From an uncultured Lentibacter sp. (GTDB lineage Bacteria; Pseudomonadota; Alphaproteobacteria; Rhodobacterales; Rhodobacteraceae), in assembly GCF_937123735.1 (NCBI RefSeq), contig NZ_CAKZKL010000050.1, forward strand, positions 1-64,000: a stretch of DNA of 64,000 nucleotides, written 5' to 3'. The translations under genes and the position numbers were made by a program. The notes beneath the pieces are model-generated. The model did not search any database. It was not told where the DNA came from and saw nothing but the letters and a program-made list of their open reading frames with translations. Below, one piece after another: positions 1 through 53,266 of the stretch. Position 1 is the first letter of the stretch, and the number at the start of each line of letters is the position of its first letter.

Positions 1-2
1 AT

Positions 3-1092
3 GCCTTAAAGGATCAGTGGGACATTGAAGATGTGACTTGTGATTTGGGTGTGATGACCAAATTACAGCCCCGTTTGCGCAAAGGAAATTGGCAGGCGTC
101 TGTCGCCGTGTATCGCGATCACAAAACTGATCAGGCCCGTATTTTAGATGTGTGGCCAGGACTACACGAAGGTGGTCTATATGGTTTGGCCATCGATTTG
201 GGTTCAACCACGGTGGCGACACACCTGACCGATTTGACCACGGGCGAAGTGGTTGCAAGCGCAGGTGTGATGAACCCACAAATCCGATTTGGCGAAGATT
301 TAATGAGCCGCGTCAGCTATTCCATGATGAACCCTGGGGGAGACCGCGAAATGACGCGGGCGGTGCGCGATGCGATCAATACATTGGCAGAGGATATCGC
401 AAAAGACGCAGATATTGATCCAAGCCTGATTTTTGAGGTTGTCTTTGTCTGCAATCCCGTCATGCACCATTTGTTGTTGGGCATTGACCCCGTTGAATTG
501 GGTCAGGCACCCTTTGCCTTGGCCACATCTAAATCCGTGACATTACAAGCGTATGATCTGGACCTGACCAATATTGCAAAATCTGCGCAGATCTATGTCC
601 TTCCTTGTATCGCAGGGCATGTTGGCGCGGATGCGGCGGCCGTTGCATTGTCCGAAGAACCCGGAAAATCCAATGATTTGGTATTGATCGTGGATGTGGG
701 AACAAACGCCGAAATCCTGCTCGGGAATACATCGCGCGTTTTGGCCTGTTCTTCACCAACAGGTCCCGCATTTGAAGGGGCGCAAATCAGTTCGGGCCAA
801 CGCGCAGCCCCCGGTGCCATTGAACGGATCGAAATTGATCCTGTGACTAAGGAGCCGCGTTTCTGCGTGATCGGCAGTGATATTTGGTCAGACGAAGAAG
901 GGTTTGCAGAAGCAACCGCCGCCTCTGGCATCACAGGTATCTGCGGGTCAGGCATTATTGAGGCGGTCGCAGAATTGCGCATCGCGGGATTGATGGATGA
1001 AAACGGTCTGATCGGATCGGCCGAGGCCACAGGCACCGCGCGCAGTATCCCAGAGGGGCGCACGCATTCTTATTTGGTCTATGACGGCACCG
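3..1092 (+). CDS. RamA/RACo-like corrinoid-activation ASKHA-domain protein (DUF4445-like), 5' partial at window edge and 3' truncated by junction with ftsY
   Basis: Frame open from nt 3; motifs AIDLGSTTVATHL, NPQIRFGEDLMSRVSY, VGTNAEILLG, SPTGPAFEGAQISSGQRAAPGAIE, GICGSGIIEAVAEL, GRTHSYLVYDG; homology breaks off at YDG. Confidence 0.8.
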
Positions 1093-1235
1093 CCAAAGGC
1101 GGCGTCCTCGTGGCTCTGGCCGATAAATTCGGCCTGCCCATCCATGCCATCGGCGTCGGCGAACAGCTCGATGATCTCGCCCCGTTTGATCCGGAAGATT
1201 TCGCCGCCGCCCTCACAGGCCTGGAAAAAGAGTAG
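1083..1235 (+). pseudogene. ftsY: C-terminal ~47 aa of signal recognition particle receptor FtsY, in frame with the upstream RamA-like ORF
   Basis: DGTAKGGVLVALADKFGLPIHAIGVGEQLDDLAPFDPEDFAAALTGL is the diagnostic FtsY C-terminus; followed by DMT and yciB genes as expected after ftsY in Rhodobacteraceae. Confidence 0.85.
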
Positions 1236-1305
1236 GCTTCATGCCCTTTCTTATTGCCAGAAATATCCCTGGGGGTGCGGGGGGCTGGCCCCCCGCTGCC
1301 GCCCT

Positions 1306-2208
1306 TTGAGCACCTGGCTGATCTCGCTTGAGGGCACAGAGGCGGGCCACACCCTCGCGCTCGGTCTCGCCCTCACAGCGGCCTTCCTGCACGCCGTCTT
1401 CGGCGCTCTGCAAAAGGGGCGGCACGATCCTTGGCTCACCCGCGGCGCGATTGATTTCTGCTATGCTGCCATTGCGGCGCCCTTCGCCTTTTTCGTCGTG
1501 CCCTGGCCTGAGCCGCATATGTGGCCCATCTTCGCTGCCGTCTTTGTGATCCATGTGGGCTATAAGCTCATGCAAAGTTGGGCCTACTCCAAGGGTGCCT
1601 ACACGGTCGTCTACCCCGTGGTGCGCGGCACTGGCCCGCTTTTTACTGTCATCGGCGCCTATTTTCTCTTTGGCGAGCGTTTCAACCTTGTCCAATGGGG
1701 CGGGGTGGCCACGCTGCTTCTCGGCATCTACGGGCTTGCCGTCTACAACCTGCGCCATGTCACGGCCGAGCGCGACACGCTCAACTTTGCGCTCGTCCTC
1801 GCGGTGATCACGGGGCTTTTTGTGGCGCTTTACACCACATGGGACGCCTACGGCATCCGCGCCACGGCCAATCCCTTCACCTTCCTTGCGTGGTTTTTCT
1901 TCATCGACGGGCTGTTCTTCCCGTGGGTTGCCTATGCCCGCTACCGCTCGATGACACAGCCGCCCGCGCTTGGCCCGCTCATGCAGCGTGGCCTCATCGG
2001 GGCTTTCGTGGCCTTTGCCAGCTTTGGTTCAGTCATGCTGGCCACACGGCTTGATAACGTGGGCGAAGCGGCCATCCTGCGCGAAACCTCCACGGTTTTT
2101 GCTGCGCTCATTGGCTGGCTCGCCCTCAAAGAAACCGTCGGCCCGCGCCGGATTGCGCTTATGGCATTGATTGCTCTGGGCGCTGTGATAGTGGAAATGG
2201 GTGGATAA
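1306..2208 (+). CDS. EamA/DMT family transporter
   Basis: Multiple TM segments, DMT pattern; likely TTG start at 1306 inside the longer 1081-2208 ORF. Confidence 0.75.
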   Translation: MSTWLISLEGTEAGHTLALGLALTAAFLHAVFGALQKGRHDPWLTRGAIDFCYAAIAAPFAFFVVPWPEPHMWPIFAAVFVIHVGYKLMQSWAYSKGAYTVVYPVVRGTGPLFTVIGAYFLFGERFNLVQWGGVATLLLGIYGLAVYNLRHVTAERDTLNFALVLAVITGLFVALYTTWDAYGIRATANPFTFLAWFFFIDGLFFPWVAYARYRSMTQPPALGPLMQRGLIGAFVAFASFGSVMLATRLDNVGEAAILRETSTVFAALIGWLALKETVGPRRIALMALIALGAVIVEMGG

Positions 2209-2217
2209 GGAGATCTC

Positions 2218-2817
2218 ATGCCCGAGACAAAAGAAATCAACCCGCTGATGAAAACCGCGCTCGAGCTGGGGCCGGTGATCGCTTTTTTCGTGGCCTATAT
2301 GGTGTTCAAAGATGATGTCTTCACCGTCGCAGGGCGCGCGTATTCGGGCTTTATCTTTGTGACCGCGGGCTTCGTGCCGCTCATTATGCTCACAACAGGC
2401 ATTCTCTGGAAGCTCACGGGCCATCTCTCCAAAATGCAGATCATGACGCTGGTGCTGGTCATCGTCTTTGGCGGCCTCACCGTCTGGCTCAACGATCCGA
2501 AGTTTCTCAAGATCAAACCAACCATTTTCTTTACCTTGATGGGGGCGATCCTTGGCGTTGGCCTTCTGCGCGGCCAGTCCTATCTGCGCTATGTGATGGA
2601 AGGGATGATGCCGCTCAAGGATGAAGGCTGGATGATCCTCACCCACCGTTTCATGTGGTTTCTCTTTGCTACCGCGCTGGCCAATGAGCTGATCTGGCGT
2701 TTCATGTCCGAAACGACATGGGTCTATTTCAAAACCTTCGGCGATACGGCGGCGATGTTTGTCTTTTTCATCAGCCAGTCGAAACTTTTCACAGAATACG
2801 CAATCGAAGAAGAGTAG
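2218..2817 (+). CDS. yciB: Septation protein A / inner membrane-spanning protein YciB
   Basis: KTALELGPVIAFFVAYMVFKDDVF..., ELIWRFMSETTWVYFKTFG; ~200 aa multi-TM. Confidence 0.85.
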   Translation: MPETKEINPLMKTALELGPVIAFFVAYMVFKDDVFTVAGRAYSGFIFVTAGFVPLIMLTTGILWKLTGHLSKMQIMTLVLVIVFGGLTVWLNDPKFLKIKPTIFFTLMGAILGVGLLRGQSYLRYVMEGMMPLKDEGWMILTHRFMWFLFATALANELIWRFMSETTWVYFKTFGDTAAMFVFFISQSKLFTEYAIEEE

Positions 2818-3728
2818 CCTTTGGCGAAAAGGTGCCAGCGTGCGTTGTCAGAGCTTGCCTGTGCGGAAGGCGGCGACGCGCATATCGCCGACAAAGGCGT
2901 CCGCTCCGGATCTTCAATCAAGGCCTGATACAACCCGAACGTGCCGTCTCGTAGATAGGGCGACCAGTGACAAAATCGCTTGCGTTGGCGGGTGATCGGA
3001 AAGCCAGCCAGCGCCAGGTGGGCAAGTGTCTCGTCACAGTCGATCTGCAGCTTGTATGTGGTTGAACGCTGGCGCACACATTGGCTCCACGGCCGGTCTC
3101 CTGCATGTTCCGGTTTTGAAAGCCCGGCCATCAACAGATCAAAGAGCCTGTTCTCGCCGCTGGTCACGATCAGCGTCTCCGTCATCGGATGCCCGTTAAA
3201 CTCCAGCGCCCCCTCTGCCGCTTGGCGGTATTCGGCAGGGTTGAGCAGAATAATGCGGCGGAACGCGCCCAATTCTAGATGAAGTAGGCTTTGAAGGATG
3301 ACACGCGCGCCGAGCGAATGCCCGATCGCATAGATTGGCCTGTTTGGTGCAGCCGCGCGTAAAATCCTGACCGCCTGGGCAAGGGCGCGCCCCGCCTGTT
3401 TGGCACGTTGATAGACCTTATGGAACGGTCCTCGTGCATCCCAGCCAAAGGCCACAGCCAGCGCAGCATCTTCGCATGTCTCGCTTATTCCCAAACGCTT
3501 CGGCCAACTCACCACCTTTTCCCTGCGACGCGGCTCTGTCAGCGAAAAGATGTGTTCGTGCGGGCAGTGCCGGCCCTGATGGGGGCGAAACGAATAGCCA
3601 TGAATCATGAAAACAATTCGAGCCGAAGGGGACGTTGTTGCGGCGTGTTCAAGCAGGGAGCCTACCGATTGCGAGGCAAGGTGCGCTTGAAGGCCACCCT
3701 CGAAATAGTTGATCCTGCAAACCGGCAT
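2724..3728 (-). CDS. Alpha/beta hydrolase
   Basis: VFMIHGYSFRP and nucleophile elbow IGHSLGARV; 3' end overlaps yciB antisense so the C-terminus is uncertain. Confidence 0.7.
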   Translation of the reverse strand: MPVCRINYFEGGLQAHLASQSVGSLLEHAATTSPSARIVFMIHGYSFRPHQGRHCPHEHIFSLTEPRRREKVVSWPKRLGISETCEDAALAVAFGWDARGPFHKVYQRAKQAGRALAQAVRILRAAAPNRPIYAIGHSLGARVILQSLLHLELGAFRRIILLNPAEYRQAAEGALEFNGHPMTETLIVTSGENRLFDLLMAGLSKPEHAGDRPWSQCVRQRSTTYKLQIDCDETLAHLALAGFPITRQRKRFCHWSPYLRDGTFGLYQALIEDPERTPLSAICASPPSAQASSDNARWHLFAKGYSSSIAYSVKSFDWLMKKTNIAAVSPKVLK

Positions 3729-3870
3729 GTGGGTATCTCCACTATATCTTGTGGTTCCTCTATCTCAATTCGCTATGAAGCCTTTATGATGGGCCGGTGA
3801 CAGTCCTATGACATGGGATGGTCACAACCGGGCCTGAAACCCGCGATATTGACCTTTGAGGGCGAAAGCG

Positions 3871-3940
3871 CTAGGCGGTGCGCAGTGGCGATTTGTTACC
3901 AGATTGCGGGCCACGTTAAACATTCTGCTAAAAGGTCGGG
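3871..3940 (+). ncRNA. SAM-II riboswitch (metA motif)
   Basis: GTGGCGATTTG...GCGGGCCACGTTAAACATTCTGCTAAAAG matches the SAM-II core (GTGGTGATTTG ... CCACGTTAAAC ... GCTAAA), directly upstream of metZ. Confidence 0.9.
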
Positions 3941-3948
3941 AAGAAGGG

Positions 3949-3980
3949 GCTCCTTCGGCTTGGCCGATGGGGCTTTTTTT
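3949..3980 (+). terminator. Intrinsic terminator of the SAM-II leader
   Basis: GCTCCTTCGGC-TTG-GCCGATGGGGC stem-loop followed by TTTTTTT. Confidence 0.8.
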
Positions 3981-3995
3981 ACGGAGTCAAAACCG

Positions 3996-5177
3996 ATGGC
4001 AAAATCACATAAGAACCGCACAGCGCTTGTCCATGGCGGCACACGCCGCTCGCAATATGGCGAGGTGAGCGAGGCGCTCTTTCTCACACAGGGCTTTGTC
4101 TACGAAACAGCCGAAGCCGCCGAGGCGCGCTTTGTCAAAGCGGGTGAGGACGAGTTCATCTATGCCCGCTACGGCAACCCCACCGTGCGGATGTTTGAAG
4201 ACCGCATCTCAGGCTATCTCGGCTATGAAGACGGGTTCGCCTGCGCTTCGGGCATGGCGGCTGTCAATGGCGCGCTTATGGCCTTGCTCAAAGTGGGCGA
4301 TCATGTGGTTGCCTCCCGCGCGCTGTTTGGCTCTTGCCTCTATGTGCTGGAAGACATCCTCGCGCGTTTTGGGGTTGAGATCACGCTGGTGGATGGCACC
4401 GACAACGCCGCATGGGACGCCGCCATTCGCGATGACACCCGCCTTGTCTTTCTGGAGAGCATTTCAAACCCCACCCTCGAGGTGATTGATCTCAAACATG
4501 TTTGCGAGCTGGCCCATGCCAAAGGCGCACTGGTGCTGGTGGATGATGCCATGGCCACGCCCGTGTTTTCTTATGCCCGCGATTGCGGCGCCGACATCAC
4601 CATCATCTCCACGACCAAACATATCGACGGGCAGGGGCGGATGCTCGGCGGCATCATCTGCGGCTCCAAAGAGCTTATCCGCGGCCCCATCGAAACCTAT
4701 GTGAAGCACACAGGTGGCGCGATGAACCCCTTTACCGCCTGGTCACACCTGAAGTCGCTTGAAACGCTAGAGCTGCGGGTGCGCGCGCAGGCTGCGGCGG
4801 CGCTCAAAGTGGCAGAGGCCCTGATGGGGCACCCCAAGCTCTCTGCTGTGCGCTATCCGACTCACCCTGCCCATCCGCAGGCGGCACGCGCCCGCGCGCA
4901 GGGTGAATCCGGCGGCACGGTGCTGACATTTGAAGTGATCGGGGGGCGTGACGCCTGTTTTCGGATGCTCAACGCCCTCAAGCTTGTGACCATCTCCAAC
5001 AACTTTGCGGATTCAAAGTCCATTGCCACCCATCCTGCGACAACAACCCACCAGCGATTGCCACAGGCGCAAAAAGACCTGTTGGGAATCTCTGACGGCT
5101 TGGTGCGCTTTTCGGTTGGGTTGGAAGATGTCGAAGACATCATTGCTGATGTTCTCAGCGCGCTCAAAGCCGCTTGA
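3996..5177 (+). CDS. metZ: O-succinylhomoserine sulfhydrylase
   Basis: Cys/Met metabolism PLP enzyme: YARYGNPTVRMFEDR, STTKHIDGQGRMLGG; start reassigned from 3813 to ATG 3996 because the upstream part is the riboswitch. Confidence 0.9.
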   Translation: MAKSHKNRTALVHGGTRRSQYGEVSEALFLTQGFVYETAEAAEARFVKAGEDEFIYARYGNPTVRMFEDRISGYLGYEDGFACASGMAAVNGALMALLKVGDHVVASRALFGSCLYVLEDILARFGVEITLVDGTDNAAWDAAIRDDTRLVFLESISNPTLEVIDLKHVCELAHAKGALVLVDDAMATPVFSYARDCGADITIISTTKHIDGQGRMLGGIICGSKELIRGPIETYVKHTGGAMNPFTAWSHLKSLETLELRVRAQAAAALKVAEALMGHPKLSAVRYPTHPAHPQAARARAQGESGGTVLTFEVIGGRDACFRMLNALKLVTISNNFADSKSIATHPATTTHQRLPQAQKDLLGISDGLVRFSVGLEDVEDIIADVLSALKAA

Positions 5178-5369
5178 GCTGAGGGGGCATGGCACAGACG
5201 TGGGGCTCTGCTGTCCATACAGCCAGCCATACAGGGCGCCATACAGGCAGCCCCACACGGAATTTTGCCACCAAAGGGTGACGCTTGTGTGAAGTTTTTG
5301 GTCTGAGCTGGCCTTCGCTGCGTAGTCTTTCTAGGTTACACTGACAGGCACCCGAGGGGGGACGAGACC

Positions 5370-6470
5370 ATGAACAAGCAGGTTGGACCGATGATTGCCG
5401 CACCAGATCGCGCTGAAGCCGAGGCAGCCCTTGAGCGCCTGCGCAGTTGGGCCATGAGTGCAACAGCTGAAGAAGTTGCAGATCTTGATCCGGCGGTCGC
5501 GCGGCTGCTGCCTCAGGGAGCGGTTTCAAATTATCCTGCTTTGGCAAGGGCTTACCCCGAGGGTTTTGAGGTTGATGACGCTTACAAAGCAACTTTGCCT
5601 GATCTTCAGAACGGCCCCTCCAGCCTGATCAAAGGCGCGCCGCGGGTGATACAGCATGTTGGAATTTCCAATTTCCGGCTGCCGCTCAAGTTTCACACCC
5701 GTGACAACGGTGATCTGACTTTGGAAACATCGGTGACTGGCACGGTGAGCCTGGAGGCCGGTAAAAAAGGTATTAACATGTCGCGCATCATGCGCAGCTT
5801 TTATAAACATTCTGCTTCTACCTTCTCTTTTGACATCATCAAAGCCGCGCTTGACGACTACAAAACAGATCTTGAAAGTTTTGATGCCCGCATCCAGATG
5901 CGGTTTTCCTTCCCCATGAAGGTTTCAAGCCTGCGCTCGGGCCTAGAGGGCTATCAATATTATGACTTCGCGCTCGAATTGGTTGAAACTGACGGAATTA
6001 GACGCAAAATCATGCACTTAGACTATGTTTACTCGTCCACTTGCCCATGCTCGCTTGAGCTTTCCGAGCACGCACGCCAGACCCGTGGCCAGCTGGCCAC
6101 GCCGCACTCGCAGCGCTCTGTTGCGCGCATTTCGGTTGAAAGTAGCGGTGCAGAGCGCTTGTGGTTTGAAGACCTGATCGAGATGTGCCGCGCGGCCGTT
6201 CCGACCGAAACCCAGGTGATGGTGAAGCGCGAAGATGAACAGGCTTTTGCCGAGTTGAACGCGGCGAACCCCATTTTCGTGGAAGATGCTGCACGCCTCT
6301 TTGCCCAGAAGCTGGAGCAAGACGAACGGGTGGGTGATTTCCGGGTGATCGCCAGTCATCAAGAGAGCCTGCACAGCCACGATGCGGTGAGTGTGCTAAC
6401 CGAGGGTGAGCTGTTTGAGAGTGAAAGCCTTGATCCTAAAATGTTTTCCACGCTCTTTCATGTTGGCTAA
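5370..6470 (+). CDS. folE2: GTP cyclohydrolase FolE2
   Basis: KGINMSRIMRS, YSSTCPCSLELSEHA, HSQRSVARISVE. Confidence 0.92.
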   Translation: MNKQVGPMIAAPDRAEAEAALERLRSWAMSATAEEVADLDPAVARLLPQGAVSNYPALARAYPEGFEVDDAYKATLPDLQNGPSSLIKGAPRVIQHVGISNFRLPLKFHTRDNGDLTLETSVTGTVSLEAGKKGINMSRIMRSFYKHSASTFSFDIIKAALDDYKTDLESFDARIQMRFSFPMKVSSLRSGLEGYQYYDFALELVETDGIRRKIMHLDYVYSSTCPCSLELSEHARQTRGQLATPHSQRSVARISVESSGAERLWFEDLIEMCRAAVPTETQVMVKREDEQAFAELNAANPIFVEDAARLFAQKLEQDERVGDFRVIASHQESLHSHDAVSVLTEGELFESESLDPKMFSTLFHVG

Positions 6471-6583
6471 GCTATGCACGCGGCGCGGTTTAGATATGTG
6501 AGAACAGCATTTGTAAGGTAATATTTGCTGACCTATATTCAGGGTGAGGGAGGAAGCCACACCATTGAATATGAGGTTTCCAA

Positions 6584-6814
6584 ATGGCATATACGACTTT
6601 GAACACCACGGCCGAATTTGGCCTGTCGCGTTTTTTTTCTACGATCAAAGCAGGGTTCGTGCAGTGGGTAGAGCGGGCGGATGCGCAGCGCGTTGAACCT
6701 TACCGGCAGCGCATAGCGGCGCTCAAGGCGATGAGCGACGATGAGCTTTTTGCCTTGGGCCTTCAGCGCGGTGATATTGAACTGCGCGTGCTAAACCGCT
6801 TTTTCTATTGCTGA
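6584..6814 (+). CDS. Small DUF1127-like protein
   Basis: 76 aa; R..RI..L.AMSDDELFALGLQRGDIELRVLNRFFYC resembles the DUF1127 C-terminal pattern. Confidence 0.5.
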   Translation: MAYTTLNTTAEFGLSRFFSTIKAGFVQWVERADAQRVEPYRQRIAALKAMSDDELFALGLQRGDIELRVLNRFFYC

Positions 6815-6922
6815 AAATCTGAACGGATCTGATCTGGGCACCGTCAGAAACAGCCACTTTCCAACAGAGCCTTGGTCTGGCTGTGCTTGACAGATCGGCA
6901 GCTTAGCGCCAAGCCTGCGGCC

Positions 6923-8371
6923 ATGTTTGATCTGCGCCCTGTTGGATATGTTATCGGCCTGCTCGTCACTGCCCTTGGGCTGGCGATGCTGGGGCCCATG
7001 GCGGTTGATCTGATCGAGGGGCGCGGGCATTGGACAGCCTTTGCCGAAAGCGCCGTGATCACCGCGCTTGTCGGCGGGCTTGTGGCGCTGTCTTGCCAGA
7101 ACGGGGTGAAGGAAGGGTTGAGTATTCAACAAACCTTTCTGCTTACCACGGGCGTTTGGGTGGCGCTGCCGCTGTTTGGGGCTTTGCCCTTTATCCTTGG
7201 TGATTCCGCCCTCTCACTCATTGATGCGGTGTTTGAAGCCATGTCGGGCCTCACAACAACGGGCGCGACGGTCATGACGGGCCTTGATGACATGCCCCGT
7301 GGCATTCTGCTTTGGCGCGGTATCCTCCAATGGCTTGGGGGGATCGGGATTATCGTGGTTGCGATGGTTTTTCTGCCAGAGCTACGCGTAGGTGGGATGC
7401 AGATTTTTCGTGCCGAATCCTTTGATACATTTGGGAAAATTCTACCCCGGGCGACCCAAATCGCCTCTCAGATTTCAGCAATCTATGTCTCCGTCACCGT
7501 GGCGTGCATCAGCACCTACATCTTGCTTGGCATGTCAGTCTTTGATGCGGTCACTCATGCGTTCACAACGGTTTCGACTGGCGGTATGTCCAATTATGAT
7601 GCGAGCTTTGCCACGTTTTCTGGGCCGCTCGAATATGCCGCAGCCATCTTTATGCTGCTCTCGGCTTTGCCGTTTGTGCGTTATGTGCAAATGCTGAATG
7701 GCAAGTTTGATGCCCCGTTGTTGGACGTTCAGGTGCGGGGCTTTTTATATACGCTGGCCGTATTGGTTGCCCTAACGACTGTTCTCCTTACACAGATTTT
7801 TCCCCATCACTGGGAGCAGGCCTTTCGTGAGGCGCTGTTTAACATCACCTCCATTATCTCCGGGACAGGATATGCGAGCGTAAACTATATGCTCTGGGGG
7901 CCTTTTCTGATTACGATTTTTTTCTTTATCGGTTTGATTGGTGGCTGCGCTGGCTCCACGGCCTGTTCGATCAAGATCTTCCGGTATCAAATCCTCTTGG
8001 CGTCCATTGCCTCACAAATCAAGAAAATCAGGGCGCCACACGGGGTCTTTACGCCCAAATACAGTGGCCGCACAATCAGTGATGATGTTCTGAATTCGGT
8101 GATGAGCTTTTTTGTTTTTTTCACACTCACATTGGGGTTTGTCGCGGTCATGCTGTCCTTTACGGGGCTTGACTTTGTCACGGCCATTTCGGGCGCAGCG
8201 GCGACTTTGGCCAATATCGGCCCCGGTTTGGGCGATGTTATCGGGCCCGCTGGCAACTATGCGAGCCTCAATGATGCGGCGAAGGTGATCTTGACTTGTT
8301 CCATGTTGATCGGCCGGCTTGAGCTTCTGGTGGTGTATGCTTTGCTGATACCTGCTTTCTGGCGCGGGTAA
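6923..8371 (+). CDS. trkH: Trk-type potassium uptake protein TrkH
   Basis: TTTGATVMTGLDDMPRGILLWRGILQWLGGIGIIV, VSTGGMSNYDASF, GGCAGSTACSIKIFR. Confidence 0.9.
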   Translation: MFDLRPVGYVIGLLVTALGLAMLGPMAVDLIEGRGHWTAFAESAVITALVGGLVALSCQNGVKEGLSIQQTFLLTTGVWVALPLFGALPFILGDSALSLIDAVFEAMSGLTTTGATVMTGLDDMPRGILLWRGILQWLGGIGIIVVAMVFLPELRVGGMQIFRAESFDTFGKILPRATQIASQISAIYVSVTVACISTYILLGMSVFDAVTHAFTTVSTGGMSNYDASFATFSGPLEYAAAIFMLLSALPFVRYVQMLNGKFDAPLLDVQVRGFLYTLAVLVALTTVLLTQIFPHHWEQAFREALFNITSIISGTGYASVNYMLWGPFLITIFFFIGLIGGCAGSTACSIKIFRYQILLASIASQIKKIRAPHGVFTPKYSGRTISDDVLNSVMSFFVFFTLTLGFVAVMLSFTGLDFVTAISGAAATLANIGPGLGDVIGPAGNYASLNDAAKVILTCSMLIGRLELLVVYALLIPAFWRG

Positions 8372-53173: not shown

Positions 53174-53220
53174 TGCTCCATTGATGTTATTCCGCTCCGT
53201 CAGGAAGCCGTTGGAGCGGC
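53174..53220 (-). ncRNA. SAM/SAH riboswitch in metK leader
   Basis: Minus strand CCGCTCCAACGGCTTCCTGACGGAGCGGAATAACATCAATGGAGCA matches NNCAACGGCUUCCUGRCGNN...AUUGGAGCA; pseudoknot includes the metK SD. Confidence 0.93.
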
Positions 53221-53266
53221 GGATTTTGAAACCGTGGACTGTTGGTCGCTGCTTAGGGGGGAAATG

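Follow-up and report, generated by a model that had tools for sequence, protein, structure and literature searches.

Genes at the start of the contig

The window analysed here is a stretch of 64,000 nucleotides that starts with the first base of contig C50 (85,393 bp) of the host genome, G000, an assembly of 2.92 Mb in 50 contigs that is 99.8% complete, with a reported contamination of 0.83%. The first open reading frame (ORF), at 3–1235 on the forward strand, is open, and its first listed start codon is a GTG at 33, giving 400 aa. The earlier note on this DNA described this 400-aa ORF as a RamA-like, DUF4445-like protein that switches in frame to FtsY. The in-frame chimera was confirmed: ORF 3–1235 is of the RACo type up to approximately base 1082 and continues with the C-terminal 50 residues of FtsY. 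The frame itself was also found. However, with the contig beginning at base 1, the gene is open on its left side as well, and the figure of 400 aa does not give its true length.

Bases 1–1082 (+) are assigned, from Pfam domains, DNA identity and a tree, to a foreign, internal piece of a gene for a corrinoid reductive activator of the RACo/DUF4445 type, derived from another marine bacterium, a HIMB11-like member of the Rhodobacteraceae. The piece begins at the contig edge. Pfam RACo_linker covers ORF residues 1–56 (E 1e-12), with the match beginning at linker position 37, Raco_middle covers residues 60–217 (E 2e-47) and RACo_C_ter covers residues 226–361 (E 2e-37), the last truncated to 120 of 261 profile positions (2–120 of 261). 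A whole RACo/DUF4445 protein, with full linker, middle and C-terminal ASKHA domain, is therefore not encoded by the ORF, whose N-terminus lies beyond the contig edge. Of the family name first proposed, the DUF4445 part stands and RamA proper does not; the RamA model (TIGR04270) gave 75 bits (74.7, on a fragment) against a cut-off of 500. The protein is better named a RACo, or DUF4445-ASKHA corrinoid activator.

The remainder of the ORF, at 1083–1235 (+), is identified by TIGR00064 and by same-genus amino acid identity as the last 50 codons and stop of the host's own ftsY, truncated by the join. Its match to the Pfam SRP54-type GTPase domain spans ORF residues 361–404 (profile positions 151–194 of 196, E 4e-9), and its match to the NCBIfam FtsY model TIGR00064 spans positions 235–278 of 279 (E 2e-11). 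It resembles FtsY in these last 44 model positions, in its correct stop and in its correct downstream genes. Unlike FtsY, the signal recognition particle receptor, the ORF has no membrane-targeting part and only a small remnant of the NG GTPase domain; a complete NG domain is absent, and the score of 44–49 bits lies below the TIGR00064 cut-off of 260.7. The tail shares 94–96% amino acid identity with FtsY of most same-genus genomes and 94% with that of the same-genus genome G001.

Downstream of the ftsY stop lies an intergenic spacer (1236–1305) with a copy of a dispersed hairpin repeat, which is native to G000 as judged by the other copies in this genome and an orthologous copy in the same spacer of G006 (L135 5961–6018). 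The repeat, TTTCTTATTGCCAGAAATATCCC-GGGGGTGCGGGGGGCTGGCCCCCC, is GC-rich, approximately 50 bp long and intergenic, forms a strong hairpin and occupies window positions 1242–1297. It is present in approximately 40 copies in G000 and occurs across the host genus and other Rhodobacteraceae genera (also in L116, L135, L137, L091, L042 and L118). In G001, the DMT frame begins 5 bases past the ftsY stop, leaving no space for the repeat. It is a candidate terminator or mobile small repeat; a literature search on this dispersed repeat found nothing specific.

A DMT/EamA-type transporter gene, the normal neighbour of ftsY, follows at 1306–2208 (+). The ORF list places its start at 1081, which extends the gene mechanically too far; the TTG at 1306 agrees with the start in G001. 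The second normal neighbour, a gene for a yciB-like inner-membrane septation protein, lies at 2218–2817 (+), as indicated by its ORF, same-genus identity and gene order. The claim that DMT and yciB normally follow ftsY was borne out, with the order ftsY–DMT–yciB–metZ kept in G001, G004 and G006. Window positions 1083–2820 share 76–82% DNA identity with four same-genus genomes. On these comparisons, everything from 1083 onwards is assigned to the host genus.

A SAM-alpha riboswitch (Rfam RF00521, 55.7 bits) was observed at 3875–3951 (+), directly upstream of the metZ-like sulfhydrylase gene. The true start of this gene is probably later than its mechanical ORF start at 3813, as the latter lies upstream of the riboswitch. 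A SAM-SAH riboswitch (Rfam RF01727, 57.3 bits) is present at 53174–53222 (−).

The junction and the change of lineage

The two parts of the ORF meet at 1083–1094 (+), where sequence comparison revealed 12 bases, GACGGCACCGCC, that ftsY shares with the RACo gene of Rhodobacteraceae bacterium HIMB11. Identity to the HIMB11 RACo gene spans 1–1102, and identity to FtsY begins at residue 360–361 (base 1080–1083). The breakpoint is thus placed within 1083–1094 or shortly after, no further than 1102, and the switch is exact to approximately 20 bases. At the junction the HIMB11 gene has TATGACGGCACCGCCGATGGCGGACCG, the ftsY of a relative such as G013 has CTGGACGGCACCGCCAAAGGCGGCGTG, and the window is HIMB11-like before GACGGCACCGCC and ftsY-like after it. 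Of the same-genus ftsY genes, the two closest that were checked have only 6–8 bases in common with the RACo gene here; judging from the host's own sequence past the join, the full 12-mer would belong to the ftsY of G000.

The idea that both families carry a D-G-T/S-A..GG stretch at this point proved correct, with motifs such as DGTADGG and DASAEGG in RACo proteins. Since D-G-T-A-x-G-G is encoded in the same frame by both genes, the join leaves the reading frame open and has the look of a fusion gene. A degenerate junction pattern searched against 396 other genomes of the family gave one match, an ordinary RACo with exactly DGTAKGG as its native motif, and no fusion. The same fusion in related genomes had been named in advance as evidence against misassembly; as none was found among these 396 genomes, neither a conserved natural fusion nor a refutation of misassembly emerged. 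Likewise, the exact junction had no match in viral contigs, and in plasmid records RACo matched only weakly and ftsY separately, with no fusion.

Each side of the junction is best matched by a different lineage. Bases 1–1102 share 92.4% DNA identity and 97% amino acid identity with the HIMB11 RACo (L015), and 90.8% DNA identity with the RACo gene of the metagenome-assembled genome (MAG) MOX_bin107 (L016). As in HIMB11, bases 1–1082 code for linker and middle regions followed by the beginning of the C-terminal ASKHA domain; the window piece differs in lacking the N-terminal part, at the contig edge, and approximately half of the C-terminal domain. As a control, metZ, DMT and other genes of window 1–7000 were compared with HIMB11 and were only 65–71% identical. 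Same-genus genomes show the reverse, with 75–82% identity downstream of the junction and 69% for the RACo part, and the lineage signal therefore flips at the junction.

A search for an intact RamA-like gene elsewhere in the assembly, which the earlier note had called for, located the host's own full RACo on contig C39 in a frame of 715 aa, which shares 69–70% amino acid identity with the window piece. In a maximum-likelihood tree of 29 sequences, the window piece clusters with HIMB11 and MOX_bin107 (support 100/99), and the C39 copy falls with those of six same-genus genomes. Apart from the window piece, nothing of the 7-kb HIMB11 RACo neighbourhood was found above 75% identity anywhere in G000. 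HIMB11 and MOX_bin107 both possess their own intact ftsY elsewhere in their genomes.

The rise in base composition that had been noticed at the switch was also seen: GC is 0.526 for 1–1082 and 0.586 for 1083–2820, and GC3 is 0.53 for 1–1082 and 0.70–0.75 for the FtsY tail, DMT and yciB. Composition was rejected as proof of foreign origin and alone proves nothing, because other ORFs of the window are equally low in GC3 (0.52–0.57). The step is real, and at most supportive of a foreign origin.

The missing part of ftsY

No intact ftsY was found among the G000 contigs, either by family search or by search with the G001 FtsY. The family search returned Ffh, the FtsY tail on C50 and one weak GTPase match, and no full FtsY. 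A full FtsY above the cut-off is present in 97 of 101 genomes of the family. The other three genomes without one are only 74–84% complete, which makes the 99.8%-complete G000 an outlier.

With the G001 FtsY (462 aa) as query, residues 3–95 were found encoded at C36:63031–63291 of G000. Contig C36 is 63,292 bp long, and the ftsY start occupies its last 262 bases. The contig ends inside 13.7 perfect CCAGAG units (C36:63211–63292), which encode the FtsY Pro-Glu repeat; the continuation of ftsY thus breaks off at a hard-to-assemble sequence. Upstream on C36 lie a formate-dehydrogenase/nuoEF-like gene and a yhhN-like gene, as before ftsY in G001. In the G001 protein the Pro-Glu repeat spans residues 55–152 and DGTAKGG begins at 413, so that approximately 260 codons plus repeats are absent between C36 and window position 1083. 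Since the normal upstream context is present on C36 and the normal downstream context on C50, the ftsY start and tail are read as belonging to a single locus and not to two copies. On the same comparison, the true order is given as C36(+), the missing ftsY middle (approximately 260 codons plus repeats) and C50(+) from 1083.

FtsY of the host genus has a long, length-variable Pro-Glu repeat before the NG domain, coded by a hexamer (CCAGAG in G000). This repeat measures 98 residues in G001 (gene L134 7051–8439), and it repeatedly ends contigs. The hexamer array in ftsY looks like a recurrent assembly break, because a contig of G006 likewise ends inside the Pro-Glu repeat (L135 6940–7045) and in G005, G007 and G008, too, the ftsY frame reaches a contig end. 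A lytic-transglycosylase-like gene adjoins ftsY in G001 and G004 and does not do so in G000, where the only match lies elsewhere, at C4:85150–85578, with 30% identity and one stop.

The proposed chimeric contig end and its alternatives

It is proposed, with a probability of approximately 95%, that ORF 3–1235 is a chimeric contig end produced by assembly error and not a gene fusion. The note had left a choice between a misjoin and microhomology recombination. It had also reasoned that a real fusion would require an intact ftsY elsewhere, and none was found among the contigs. The absence of an intact ftsY, the end of C36, the HIMB11-like 1.08 kb and the shared 12-mer speak for the misjoin and against a real fusion. 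The corollary that the first ~1.08 kb would then not belong here is supported, this stretch being HIMB11-like.

Recombination in the cell, in which a fragment of a HIMB11-like RACo gene would have been taken up and inserted into ftsY through microhomology to give a genuine fusion gene, would fit a join that is in frame and placed at a microhomology, and horizontal transfer is common between Rhodobacteraceae. However, such an event would have destroyed the only ftsY of G000, a gene kept in every near-complete relative sampled and essential in E. coli. Furthermore, the rest of the RACo gene from the source of the fragment was not found elsewhere in G000, the first base of the RACo part coincides with the contig edge, with the ftsY start on C36 across the same gap, and the junction pattern occurs in no relative as a fusion. 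Such recombination is considered very improbable. A recent microhomology fusion in a strain that carries the RACo–FtsY chimera with a broken or partly duplicated ftsY, and lives without a normal FtsY, is harder still to credit.

A merodiploid state, with a real fusion as a harmless remnant beside DMT and yciB and a second, intact ftsY left unassembled, ranks no higher than recombination in the cell. The ftsY start on C36 attests to a normal ftsY in part or in whole, and the contigs could miss an intact copy; however, the surroundings of that start (nuoEF-like, yhhN-like) and of the C50 tail (DMT, yciB) correspond to a single locus, and only one copy of the FtsY C-terminus is present in G000. 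The least probable reading, at a negligible level, is that the resemblance to FtsY is spurious, with a divergent RACo C-terminus at the end of the ORF. Both families do carry D-G-T/S-A-x-G-G here, but RACo sequences continue with PRITVT or similar after the motif, RACo similarity stops at approximately residue 367–373, and the tail is up to 94–96% identical to same-genus FtsY over approximately 50 residues, with an FtsY model E-value of 2e-11. Identity to FtsY past the motif already refutes a divergent RACo. The chimera had been said to fall if no FtsY similarity followed residue 350; it stands, with similarity present from residue 360–361.

An assembly error could have produced the chimeric contig end as follows. 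The true locus comprises the formate-dehydrogenase/nuoEF-like gene, the yhhN-like gene, ftsY, DMT, yciB and metZ. An assembly gap at the (CCAGAG)n array splits ftsY, with its left part ending C36 and its right part on C50, which would be expected to start near the array. Instead, the sequence upstream of the DGTAKGG codons is replaced by 1,082 bases of a HIMB11-like RACo gene; the switch, at the short common sequence GACGGCACCGCC, could have been made through a chimeric read or template, or through overlap-based extension of the contig end. As 12 bases of identity are shorter than usual assembly k-mers, either the donor allele has more bases in common or the template or read was itself chimeric; RACo genes with native DGTAKGG exist and are compatible with such a donor allele. 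Library preparation or assembly, and not an event in a cell, is the presumed origin of the switch, and the particular step suggested is likewise presumptive. A chimeric contig end explains together the edge position, the foreign edge piece, the missing ftsY middle, the end of C36 in a repeat and the absence of the fusion from every relative sampled.

Chimeric contigs formed by misassembly are a recognised class of error in prokaryotic genomes and MAGs (GUNC paper, PMC8201837). The present contig resembles these GUNC-type cases (PMC8201837) in joining two lineages, with a lineage signal that changes sharply at one point, and differs from them in that the foreign part is only ~1.1 kb, lies at a contig edge and stays within one family. 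For these same reasons, gene-marker contamination scores would hardly register it.

The RACo–FtsY ORF offers no new biology; its value is as a curation warning on the contig. Bases 1–1082 of C50 should be trimmed, and the predicted 400-aa fusion protein should stay out of databases. A kilobase-scale, within-family chimera of this kind can pass both completeness and contamination checks. The apparent loss of ftsY in G000 is an assembly gap, and its recurrent cause is the Pro-Glu-coding hexamer array in ftsY, which breaks assemblies of this family at one gene.
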